A stretch of DNA of 64,000 nt from Roseovarius aestuariivivens. Its GTDB lineage: Bacteria > Pseudomonadota > Alphaproteobacteria > Rhodobacterales > Rhodobacteraceae. Below the pieces are notes generated by a model, which saw only the letters and a program-made list of their open reading frames with translations, was not told where the DNA came from and searched no databases. The stretch is from the NCBI RefSeq assembly GCF_004761875.1, contig NZ_SJEY01000001.1:496001-560000 (forward strand). Reading direction: 5' to 3'. Position 1 is the stretch's first letter. Each line of letters begins with the position of its first letter. This document shows, piece by piece, positions 1,472 through 59,863 of this stretch. Both the position numbers and the translations under genes were made by a program.

Positions 1472-1475
1472 TGCG

Positions 1476-1520
1476 TAAAAGAAAAACGGCGACGCCAGGG
1501 AGGAGGAGAGGCGCCGCCGT
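1476..1520 (-). terminator. Rho-independent terminator closing the anti-SD RNA array
   Basis: The stem 1486-1496/1510-1520 has 11 pairs (one G-U), with the loop UCUCCUCCUCCCU, followed on the minus strand by TTTTTCTTTT (1485-1476). It is both the terminator and the last anti-SD hairpin of the array. It lies 3' of the convergent 87-aa gene. Confidence 0.8.
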
Positions 1521-1680
1521 TGGTCACGTCGGGCCCCAGGGAGGAGGAGAGGAACCCTTCGCGTCTCGCGGGCCTCGAAGCAGGCCCGGTATTTATGGCG
1601 GCATCCCCAAGGGAGGAAATGCGGGGCTGCCGCCGTCACAGATGCCAAGGGAGGAGGAGTGGCATCCGATCCATGTCTCG
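1476..1680 (-). ncRNA. CcsR-like small RNA array: four hairpins with anti-Shine-Dalgarno loops
   Basis: Read on the minus strand, four hairpins follow one another: stem 1641-1646/1661-1666, stem 1597-1608/1623-1634 (one mismatch), stem 1531-1537/1551-1557 (with G-U pairs), and stem 1486-1496/1510-1520. Every loop carries CUCCUCCC or UUCCUCCC, complementary to Shine-Dalgarno sequences. A fifth hairpin without the motif (about 1568-1588) separates the second and third. The last hairpin is followed by UUUUUCUUUU, which fixes the direction as minus. Known: the CcsR RNAs of Rhodobacter sphaeroides are tandem stress-induced RNAs with CCUCCUCCC loops, made together with a DUF1127 gene. Here no DUF1127 gene is attached. 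A CCCATAT element at 1757-1763 (minus) could be a heat-shock-type -10 box, but the 5' end is unknown. Confidence 0.75.
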
Positions 1681-1899
1681 GTTCGTTGAGACAAAGATAG
1701 GTGAATGCTGCAACTGCACAATACCCCTCTGCGCAATGCTGCCATGCAGAAAACGCATATGGGATTCTGACTTGATATCAGGCGCTTGAGCCGCTTTTTT
1801 GGGCGAAATGCGAACGAAAATACCCGCTGGTCGCGAGCTTGGTTTCCTGTTTGAAACAGCTCGTGACGGGGTTTTATGAGATCGCGGAAGGATTTGGCG

Positions 1900-21326: not shown

Positions 21327-21475
21327 GCGCGCGATCCCCTACATCTTGTGGTCCGGTTCTGCCCAAGACATATGACGCGGGAGCAAAAGCTTTGTTACAC
21401 CATCGTGACGCAGCAAGTACGCAACGCCCCTGCGCGGCGCGGTTGACGCCTTCCTTCGCGCAGGGTAATTCGACG

Positions 21476-21532
21476 GTGTGGCGATTTGTTACCGGATTGC
21501 GGGCCACGTAAAACACCACCGCTAAAGAGGTC
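21476..21532 (+). promoter_or_regulatory. SAM-II riboswitch
   Basis: P1 is formed by GTGGC (21478-21482) and GCCAC (21503-21507). The loop begins GATTTGTTACC and the 3' part is GTAAAACACCACCGCTAAAGAGG, close to the conserved SAM-II end GCTAAAAAGG that closes the pseudoknot. It lies 73 bases upstream of metZ and is directly followed by a terminator. Known: SAM-II represses methionine-synthesis genes in alphaproteobacteria when S-adenosylmethionine is plentiful. Confidence 0.85.
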
Positions 21533-21538
21533 AGGAGA

Positions 21539-21576
21539 AAGCCCCCTTTCGCTTGACCGGCACGGGGCTTTTTTAT
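21539..21576 (+). terminator. Rho-independent terminator forming the SAM-II expression platform
   Basis: AAGCCCC (21539-21545) pairs with GGGGCTT (21564-21570) and is followed by TTTTATT. It lies between the SAM-II aptamer and the metZ start, so transcription attenuation is the likely output. Confidence 0.8.
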
Positions 21577-39586: not shown

Positions 39587-39799
39587 TCAGTTTTCCGACC
39601 AATGCTCAGGAATATCCCAGATCGGACGGTGCGCTTCCTGCAGTGCCTGCGCGCGCGTGACGCCGATATCCCGCAGGCGTTCTGTGTCCAGCACAGCCAG
39701 CGCGCGACGTTGGCGTGCAAGCGCAAAAAGCGCGCCGAATGAGGGCAGGCGGCGGCGCAGGCGGCCTGCGGTGGTGGTGTCGGTGAGGAAGGTCATCAT
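39587..39799 (-). CDS. DUF1127-family protein, 70 aa
   Basis: The core RQRRALAVLDTERLRDIGVT, RAQALQEAHRPIWDIPEHW is a textbook DUF1127 domain. The N-terminus (MMTFLTDTTTAGRLRRRLPS) is basic. GAAAGGATTGA before the ATG is a good ribosome binding site. It is divergent from a LysR gene at 39921. I looked downstream for CcsR-like CCUCC hairpins (39490-39586) and found none, so the anti-SD array at 1.6 kb has no DUF1127 partner here either. Confidence 0.9.
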   Translation of the reverse strand: MMTFLTDTTTAGRLRRRLPSFGALFALARQRRALAVLDTERLRDIGVTRAQALQEAHRPIWDIPEHWSEN

Positions 39800-39920: not shown

Positions 39921-40796
39921 ATGCGAAATCTCGACATGACGACGCTTCGGTCGTTTCTCTCCGTCTCTGAACAGGGGGGTGTCACCCGCGCCGCACAGGT
40001 GCTCAACCTCACGCAATCGGCGGTCTCGATGCAGATCAAGCGGCTGGAGGACATGCTGGGCCTGGAGCTTCTTGACCGCACGGGACGGCGCGTGGCGCTT
40101 ACCGCTTCGGGAGAGCAGCTTTTGGGCTATGCGCGGCGGATCGTCGATCTCAACGACGAGGCGGTCGGACGTCTGACCGACAAGGTTTATGAGGGCGAGG
40201 TCGTTCTAGGCGTGCCGCACGACATCGTGTACCCGGTGGTGCCACGCGTGCTGAAAAGCTTCAATTCAGCTTTGCCTAGAGTAAACGTGGTGCTGAAGTC
40301 CTCGTCGACCAATCGTCTCCACGAGGCCCGGGCACGCGGAGAGTGCCATCTGATCCTGACAACCGAGTCCCAAGTCGCTCCGGGCGGAGAGACCTTGGCG
40401 GAGATCCCTTTGCGCTGGGTCGGGGCCATGGGCGGGCAGGTCTGGAAAAAGCGTCCTTTGAGGGTTGCGTTCTGCTCGCAATGCATCTTCCGGCCTTTCG
40501 CGTTGCGACGGCTCGAGGCTGCCGGGATCGACTGGGACATGATTGTGGAAACGGAAGAGGACCGTTCCGTCGAGGCGCTGATCAGCGCGGATCTGGCCAT
40601 TGGGGCGCTGCTTGAAAGCTCTATTCCGCCTCATCAGGAGGCGATCGCAGCGGCGGGCATGCTGCCTGAACTTGGCGTACAGCAGGTCAACCTTTATGGC
40701 GCAACCGAGCGGGACGAGATCACGGCAAAACTGGCCGATATGCTGCGCCAGGGCTATGCCGGATCTCCGGCCGTTCTGGCGAGGGCCGCGTCATGA
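39921..40796 (+). CDS. LysR-family transcriptional regulator
   Basis: A 291-aa regulator. The helix-turn-helix is LRSFLSVSEQGGVTRAAQVL with LNLTQSAVSMQIKRLEDMLG; the effector domain begins about residue 90 (GEVVLGVPHDIVYPVVPRVL). The gene is divergent from the DUF1127 gene, and the 121-base intergenic region probably holds its operator. The 3' end overlaps the convergent oxidoreductase gene by six bases. Effector and targets unknown. Confidence 0.92.
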   Translation: MRNLDMTTLRSFLSVSEQGGVTRAAQVLNLTQSAVSMQIKRLEDMLGLELLDRTGRRVALTASGEQLLGYARRIVDLNDEAVGRLTDKVYEGEVVLGVPHDIVYPVVPRVLKSFNSALPRVNVVLKSSSTNRLHEARARGECHLILTTESQVAPGGETLAEIPLRWVGAMGGQVWKKRPLRVAFCSQCIFRPFALRRLEAAGIDWDMIVETEEDRSVEALISADLAIGALLESSIPPHQEAIAAAGMLPELGVQQVNLYGATERDEITAKLADMLRQGYAGSPAVLARAAS

Positions 40797-59465: not shown

Positions 59466-59863
59466 CGCGAGTGGCGGCATATTTCCTGGCCCTCTGTCTG
59501 GCGCAACCCGCCCAGCCGCAGGACGAGGCAAGGGAGGAGAGTCTCGTCCTGCCTTCGGGGCTTGGCGCGGTTCTGCACGAAATGCTTTGGGACCGTCCGG
59601 GTGGAGGACTGGTCTACCGTTTCCGGTTCGTCGCGCCAGAGTTCACTGGCAATGAAGATTTCGATGCGCTCTCGGCTGACTTGGAGCATCTGTGCAACAA
59701 CTACGCGCTTCCACGGCTTTCCAATACCGGTCCAAAACCTGCACGCATCATCGTGTCACTTGCCGACAAGCCGTCCCCGTTCGGGCAGTTCGATCCCGCA
59801 GTTATCCAGATCTTCGAGTCCTATTCGGTCGAGGATGGCGCCTGCATTTGGGAGATGTTCTGA
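59462..59863 (+). CDS. Secreted hypothetical protein, 133 aa (possibly DUF6497)
   Basis: A signal peptide (MTRVAAYFLALCLAQPAQPQ) precedes a compact domain: LPSGLGAVLHEMLWDRPGGG, YRFRFVAPEFTGNEDFDALS, LEHLCNNYALPRLSN, IIVSLADKPSPFGQFDPAVI, ending EDGACIWEMF. Two cysteines may pair. I believe this matches a Rhodobacterales-specific unknown family (DUF6497), without certainty. Coupled to the preceding gene by an ATGA overlap. The 214 bases that follow (59864-60077) contain nothing recognisable. Confidence 0.68.
   Translation: MTRVAAYFLALCLAQPAQPQDEAREESLVLPSGLGAVLHEMLWDRPGGGLVYRFRFVAPEFTGNEDFDALSADLEHLCNNYALPRLSNTGPKPARIIVSLADKPSPFGQFDPAVIQIFESYSVEDGACIWEMF

Follow-up and report, generated by a model that had tools for sequence, protein, structure and literature searches.

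A predicted CcsR-type anti-Shine-Dalgarno sRNA array retained beside mrp after loss of its DUF1127 gene in Roseovarius

The window analysed is a stretch of 64,000 nt from Roseovarius aestuariivivens, and all coordinates refer to it. Near its start the minus strand from 1668 to 1485 forms four consecutive hairpins that present CUCCUCCC/UUCCUCCC in their loops, and a terminator with a U-tract closes the array. On one side of the array lies mrp, and on the other a small gene (1208–1471) preceded by a cobalamin riboswitch on the plus strand (904–1096), in agreement with the original prediction of an array placed between mrp and a B12-controlled gene. The riboswitch is also present in 8 of the 20 relatives' loci scanned, so this neighbour of the array is partly conserved. 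A second riboswitch in the window, of the SAM_alpha type, is located at 21468–21546 (plus strand, 53.1 bits).

Following the minus strand, hairpin 1 (1639–1668) has the loop CUCCUCCUCCC and is followed by hairpin 2 (1597–1634), in which the loop is UUCCUCCC. A short linker hairpin lacking the motif (1569–1588, minus strand) then leads into hairpin 3 (1525–1563) and hairpin 4 (1485–1521), both with the loop CUCCUCCUCCC. Hairpin 4 is the stem of the terminator, and continues directly into the U-tract TTTTTCTTTT (1476–1484, minus strand), read from the sequence. Hairpins 1 to 4 were assigned by folding together with motif calls, hairpin 4 additionally by covariation, and the linker hairpin by folding. 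The CCTCCC sequence is fully unpaired in the loop of each of the four hairpins, so that folding confirmed both the four minus-strand hairpins with loops of conserved type and the terminator that had been predicted at the end. Taken alone the motif is not rare; there are four copies of CTCCTCCC in the 64 kb against an expectation of 2.1, and CCTCCC occurs 17 times where 39 would be expected. One further GGGAGGAG, at 59532 of the window, has no assigned start codon. What is unusual is that four copies of the motif lie within ~160 nt, each of them in a hairpin loop.

In the window 255 nt separate mrp from the first loop, and no frame for DUF1127 turned up between mrp and the array. We compared 63 loci of the genus Roseovarius, comprising 60 mrp loci together with the window, L033 and L065. 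A DUF1127 gene between mrp and the array is absent from 12 of these. The distance from mrp to the first loop is 248–313 nt in the 12 loci without the gene and 479–1044 nt in the 51 with it (the distance table misplaces the array in L058, L067 and L173, and holds no array for L080, L091 and L095). The empty gap, too short by comparison with the minimum of 479 nt where the gene is present, bears out the prediction that the array stands without its DUF1127 partner. By eye, the 5′ leader CTCAACGAAC in the window now adjoins GATCGGATG, which in relatives is the spacer after the stop codon. Ten loci were left out as repeats of genomes in the set (L047, L048, L053, L055, L059, L061, L063, L068, L073 and L077). 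L101–L126, mostly a second type of mrp gene with no array, were left out of the comparisons, with the exception of L103 and L107, used once.

A scan with the Mrp protein was also made, in which the best 80 named loci are mostly from Rhodobacterales. The DUF1127 gene is present in 54 of these best 80, and an mrp-adjacent array without it is found in three (L047, L048 and L065); the rest mainly have a more distant mrp, mostly with no array. L048 is from R. confluentis, a member of the DUF1127-less clade. A profile of CcaF1 (termed A2, cut-off E 1e-6) was run over 84 genomes of the genus and matched in 78. At this cut-off there was no match in the window's own genome, nor in G031, G012, G008 or G074. 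In five genomes (G006, G032, G035, G065 and G083) the only match is weak (E about 1e-7) and lies elsewhere in the genome, and in G102 the match (5e-10) is on a contig other than that of the array. Movement of ccaF1 to another place was ruled out for the window's own genome by the absence of any A2 match at E 1e-6. Three other DUF1127 matches are found in this genome, none of them followed by an array in the flanks examined. The window contains a short DUF1127-family frame (39587–39799, minus strand; 26.1 bits, above the cut-off) that is divergent from the LysR-type gene at 39921–40796 (plus strand).

The relationship of the array to known RNA was examined using covariance models. A model (R1) was constructed from the last two hairpins of 30 DUF1127-linked arrays, leaving out the window. 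It matches hairpins 3 and 4 (1472–1569, minus strand) with 79.6 bits and E 2.2e-16, and hairpins 1 and 2 (1585–1676, minus strand) with 31.9 bits and E 1.3e-5. A new class of RNA was ruled out by the former match, to a model built from DUF1127-linked arrays only. R1 finds the array in 80 of the 84 Roseovarius-genus genomes, and in 72 of the 72 with completeness of 90% or more and contamination of 5% or less. The Rfam models score lower. CcsR1 (RF02791) gives 45.7 bits for hairpins 3 and 4 and 30.2 bits for hairpins 1 and 2, not reaching its gathering threshold of 65.3, and ar14 (RF02344) gives 48.5 bits for hairpins 3 and 4 (second half 30.8) where the threshold is 58.8. Among 20 relatives' loci scanned, 15 of which have the DUF1127 gene, none reaches the CcsR1 threshold and two (L086 and L129) reach that of ar14. 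The Rfam models are therefore narrow, since relatives that bear DUF1127 mostly miss the thresholds too. The choice of CcsR as the nearest known class was upheld by the R1 matches, with the Rfam CcsR1 search remaining below gathering.

In the window all four loops of the adjacent hairpins are of the CCUCCUCCC type, and CCTCCTCCC is the loop in 413 of the 532 loops tallied over all loci. The array is homologous to those that follow DUF1127 genes, and lies at the same site beside mrp. On this evidence it is assigned as an anti-Shine-Dalgarno sRNA cluster of the CcsR/cuckoo (CIN1) type, predicted to fold as two double hairpins. The upstream DUF1127 gene of the same transcript, expected of the CIN1 type, is absent; as it has been lost in the lineage, the window does not hold an intact CIN1 locus. 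A hairpin layout differing from CcsR had been predicted, with an extra hairpin between units 2 and 3 as a special feature. Neither was sustained. The loop spacing and the extra hairpin are the same as in DUF1127-linked relatives, and among the DUF1127-bearing loci of the genus that have four loops, 31 of 32 are predicted to form a hairpin at the place of 1588–1569.

No second CcsR array was found above chance in the window's own genome with CcsR1 (next best E 0.75), and none with R1 at E 0.001. Two ar14 matches in that genome (C33:109172 and C1:121305) were rejected, as they fold into other structures with no motif loops. The cuckoo RNA family, reportedly described by Reinkensmeier and Giegerich in 2015, is said to comprise arrays of 2 to 4 adjacent hairpins, in which the loop is CCUCCUCCC and the stems vary, usually next to a DUF1127 gene. 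The window differs in lacking the DUF1127 partner of cuckoo/CIN1 loci, and some of its relatives exceed that number of hairpins. In L086 (Loktanella atrilutea) the array at the same locus is very long, with 23 motifs over 1015 nt, 21 of them in predicted hairpin loops. Very long arrays also occupy this locus in L075 (16 of 17 motifs in predicted loops), L062 (14 of 15) and L054 (13 of 14), and clusters of the motif occur away from mrp in L091, L104, L080 and L095 (Amylibacter-like and others).

The two strands can be distinguished by the stems. In the 12 arrays without DUF1127, cells with G-U or U-G outnumber those with A-C or C-A by 62 to 6, and in the 30 DUF1127-linked arrays by 67 to 5. Because the related stems tolerate G-U far more than A-C, the RNA is the minus strand. 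The alternative is that the plus strand is the functional RNA, its GGGAGGAG-bearing hairpins acting as a sponge for a CsrA/RsmA-like protein. The plus-strand loops read AGGGAGGAG, with a weak match there to RsmW (13.3 bits against a gathering threshold of 52), and the array region alone folds about equally well on either strand (−92.9 for plus, −92.7 for minus). Compared with its own shuffles the minus strand folds far better, with z = −5.6 against −2.6 for the plus strand, none of 200 shuffles being as good in either case. Moreover the minus strand carries the terminator U-tract as well as the conserved promoter, and the homologous arrays follow minus-strand DUF1127 genes. Such a sponge is extremely improbable, and was set aside on the strand evidence from the G-U and A-C cells.

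The history of the missing gene was traced on a tree of Mrp with 73 rows (the 63 genus loci and 10 outgroups), based upon that one gene only. Eleven of the 12 loci without DUF1127 form a single clade, with support 100/96. The twelfth (L151, in G102) lies apart, so that the least number of changes is two. All 10 outgroup rows have the gene, so its absence represents loss, occurring twice. Since the loss took place within the genus with promoter and array kept, the stand-alone state is derived and the promoter is inherited. An independent origin, by which a new stand-alone array was inserted beside mrp, would fit the lack of a DUF1127 neighbour in the window. Against this, relatives share the mrp-divergent place, the promoter block, the order of the hairpins and the linker hairpin, and the gene is present in every outgroup; with synteny refuting it as far as tested, we give this origin almost no credence. 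From its sequence, the locus is best described as an ordinary mrp-divergent CIN1 locus minus the ccaF1-type gene. Of the proposal that it might be a new, independently transcribed variant, the stand-alone state without DUF1127 survives; the arrangement arose by gene loss and has an inherited promoter. Independent transcription of the array is inferred from the conserved promoter block. L151 is an independent instance of a DUF1127-less array, in which the hairpin loops and the promoter boxes are kept.

The 12 DUF1127-less arrays were placed upon the structure of the window. Counted on this structure, which is favoured by having been derived from the window itself, 90.1% of cells are paired and 19 of 51 pairs are changed on both sides, compared with a mean of 11.5 in shuffles and at most 10 in slid controls. 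In the linker hairpin six of the seven pairs have such two-sided changes. The covariation score is 0.320, against 0.186 when shuffled and at most 0.091 when slid. All 45 of the motifs called are in hairpin loops; that of hairpin 2 is lost from three of the 12 arrays (L130, L131 and L135). Loss of loop motifs in close relatives had been named in advance as grounds for refutation; for the most part it is not observed, the exceptions being hairpin 2 of these three arrays. Over six sub-lineages the mean identity is 76% in motif columns, 65% in stems and 48% in other columns. The expectation of conserved loops on variable stems thus holds on average; it fails for loop 2, where identity is only 51%, and is reversed in hairpin 4, where the stem (89%) exceeds the motif (79%).

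These data bear on the possibility that the array is a decaying relic, functionless and on its way out after the loss of ccaF1. The loss of loop 2 in three of the 12 arrays, hairpin 2 being the least conserved, is what a relic might show. Compensatory changes and intact loops across the 11-species clade and in the independent loss argue the other way, as do promoter boxes kept in 12 of 12 DUF1127-less loci, and we regard decay as unlikely. Promoter and array have been retained after the loss of the gene.

The 63 genus loci share a strongly conserved promoter block, ATGCA...CTGCATAGCAGCATTG...TTGTGCA..TGCAGCA...TATCTT, which precedes DUF1127, or the array itself in loci that have lost the gene. 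In the window it provides a −35-like TTGTGC (1716–1721, minus strand) and a putative −10-like TATCTT (1694–1699, minus strand) with a 16-nt spacer, giving a predicted start near 1687. A sigma-70 scan placed these −35 and −10 elements of the array below threshold, and called no promoter. Two LTTR-type boxes belong to this region. The upstream box TGCG-N6-GCAT (1744–1757, minus strand) lies at about −70 to −57 from the predicted start, and has one change (TGCG) from the LsrB box TGCA-N6-GCAT. The second, TGCA-N6-GCAT (1705–1718, minus strand), was located by pattern count and overlaps the −35. Of 103 loci, 97 contain TGCA-N6-GCAT, where shuffling would lead one to expect 2.5. Relative to the first base of TTGTGC it mostly lies 36–37 nt upstream or 3 nt downstream, and loci in which the two boxes are exact have them 39–40 bp apart. 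Allowing TGC[AG]-N6-GCAT, both are present in 12 of 12 DUF1127-less loci. LysR-type promoters typically have a pair of sites, one near −65 and the other near −35.

The same region resembles the operators of two known regulators. The LsrB box of NfeR1 in Sinorhizobium meliloti is reported at −72 to −60/−57 (PMC10746234). The plus-strand sequence CAATGCTGCCATGCA (1734–1748) agrees at 14 of 15 positions with the VtlR-binding motif CAATGCAGCCATGCA reported for Brucella (PMC12595884), and is the only exact fit to CAATGCWGCYATGCA in the window's own genome. If up to three mismatches are allowed, 89 of 103 loci contain the VtlR-like 15-mer, compared with 25 of 2060 shuffled sequences. The Agrobacterium tumefaciens form GCAT-N3-TG-N3-T (box from PMC7486931) fits only 7 of the 103. 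A search for operators in the own genome using CTGCATRGCAGCATTGC and TGCTGCNNNGCAGCA revealed no clear regulon. In Rhizobiales the LsrB/VtlR gene is next to trxB. None was found beside trxB here, where the gene downstream is not LysR. A LysR protein encoded at 39921–40793 of the window (frame listed as 39921–40796, plus strand) resembles LrhA most.

Since the loci inherited the boxes from a common ancestor, conservation does not tell which protein binds them. The promoter of the same array might be driven by PhaR, which senses polyhydroxybutyrate, or by RpoH only, with no part for an LsrB/VtlR-type LTTR. CTGCNNNGCAG, reported as the PhaR site of R. sphaeroides (PMC12542648), fits the same promoter stretch in 73 of 103 loci against 1.1 expected, and where the first copy is changed there is another 8 nt further on. 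In R. sphaeroides the ccaF1-CcsR operon is reported to have an RpoHI/RpoHII promoter (PMC10253847). On the other side stand the two boxes, which keep fixed positions about the −35 and an LTTR-promoter-like spacing of 39–40 bp, and the reported control of anti-Shine-Dalgarno sRNAs and DUF1127 genes by LsrB/VtlR in rhizobia and Brucella (PMC12595884, PMC10746234), where Brucella VtlR activates DUF1127 genes and AbcR2 (PMC12595884). PhaR or RpoH alone is a less likely driver that nonetheless deserves serious weight; a LysR-type activator akin to LsrB/VtlR is the probable occupant of the two TGC[AG]-N6-GCAT boxes.

The array can be compared with two characterized systems. With CcsR1-4 of R. sphaeroides it shares loops of CCUCCUCCC type, repeated units and a terminator at the end, and the CcsR1-4-like operon with a DUF1127 gene is present in the relatives of the window (PMC10253847, PMC8307010); it differs in lacking ccaF1 and in scoring below the RF02791 threshold. 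CcsR1-4 are processed from the ccaF1 3′ UTR by RNase E with the help of CcaF1, an RNA-binding partner which is needed for their maturation and in excess lowers CcsR (PMC10253847, PMC8625941, PMC8307010). They target flhR (PMC8307010). Hfq binding is a further trait attributed to CcsR of R. sphaeroides. The CIN1 locus is mentioned in PMC10253847. NfeR1 (alpha-r14) of S. meliloti likewise has several hairpins with CCUCCUCCC loops on differing stems and its own promoter with an LsrB-type TGCA-N6-GCAT box about −70 (PMC10746234), a position that in the window is counted from the predicted start. NfeR1 has three hairpins and the window four plus the linker hairpin, in another genomic place. NfeR1 is activated by LsrB and silences ntrB via anti-Shine-Dalgarno seeds (PMC10746234), whereas LsrB control of the window array is putative, from the sequence of the box.

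Building on the computed homology, structure, strand, gene loss and retention of promoter and array, we infer transcription, regulator, targets and mode of action as follows. With a probability of about 0.82, the array is a stand-alone, LysR-type-regulated anti-Shine-Dalgarno sRNA that blocks translation initiation, following one loss of the ccaF1-type gene in the ancestor of the 11-member clade. The co-transcribed gene would have been deleted once in that ancestor, such that the old promoter now runs straight into the array. An LTTR of the LsrB/VtlR kind at the two boxes would give a transcript of ~210 nt, from about 1687 to 1476, ending at hairpin 4. The pyrimidine loops (CCUCCU, the anti-Shine-Dalgarno core) may then base-pair to purine-rich ribosome-binding sites on several mRNAs and so prevent translation from starting, as NfeR1 does with ntrB. 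Without CcaF1, maturation might be performed by RNase E alone or by another DUF1127 protein, or might not be needed; the three other DUF1127 matches in the genome could stand in for CcaF1.

The locus belongs to a known family and is ordinary in all but one respect: throughout a clade the partner gene has been lost while the RNAs have stayed. As the RNAs are kept and the gene is lost, the sRNAs of this clade must work without that protein gene. It is conceivable, at somewhat less than even odds, that CcsR in Rhodobacterales and NfeR1 in Rhizobiales are branches of one LsrB/VtlR-switched anti-Shine-Dalgarno system, and that loss of ccaF1 here has produced a primary, protein-independent sRNA, the NfeR1-like architecture being reached from the other side, out of a processed 3′-UTR cluster. 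Among the papers searched, none mentions LsrB together with CcsR. The promoter boxes would make it possible to ask directly whether the anti-Shine-Dalgarno sRNAs of both Rhizobiales and Rhodobacterales answer to a single redox-responsive LysR regulator. The 11-species clade and the one separate case, in which the sRNAs are kept and the protein gene is lost, provide a natural test of the link between CcaF1 and CcsR.
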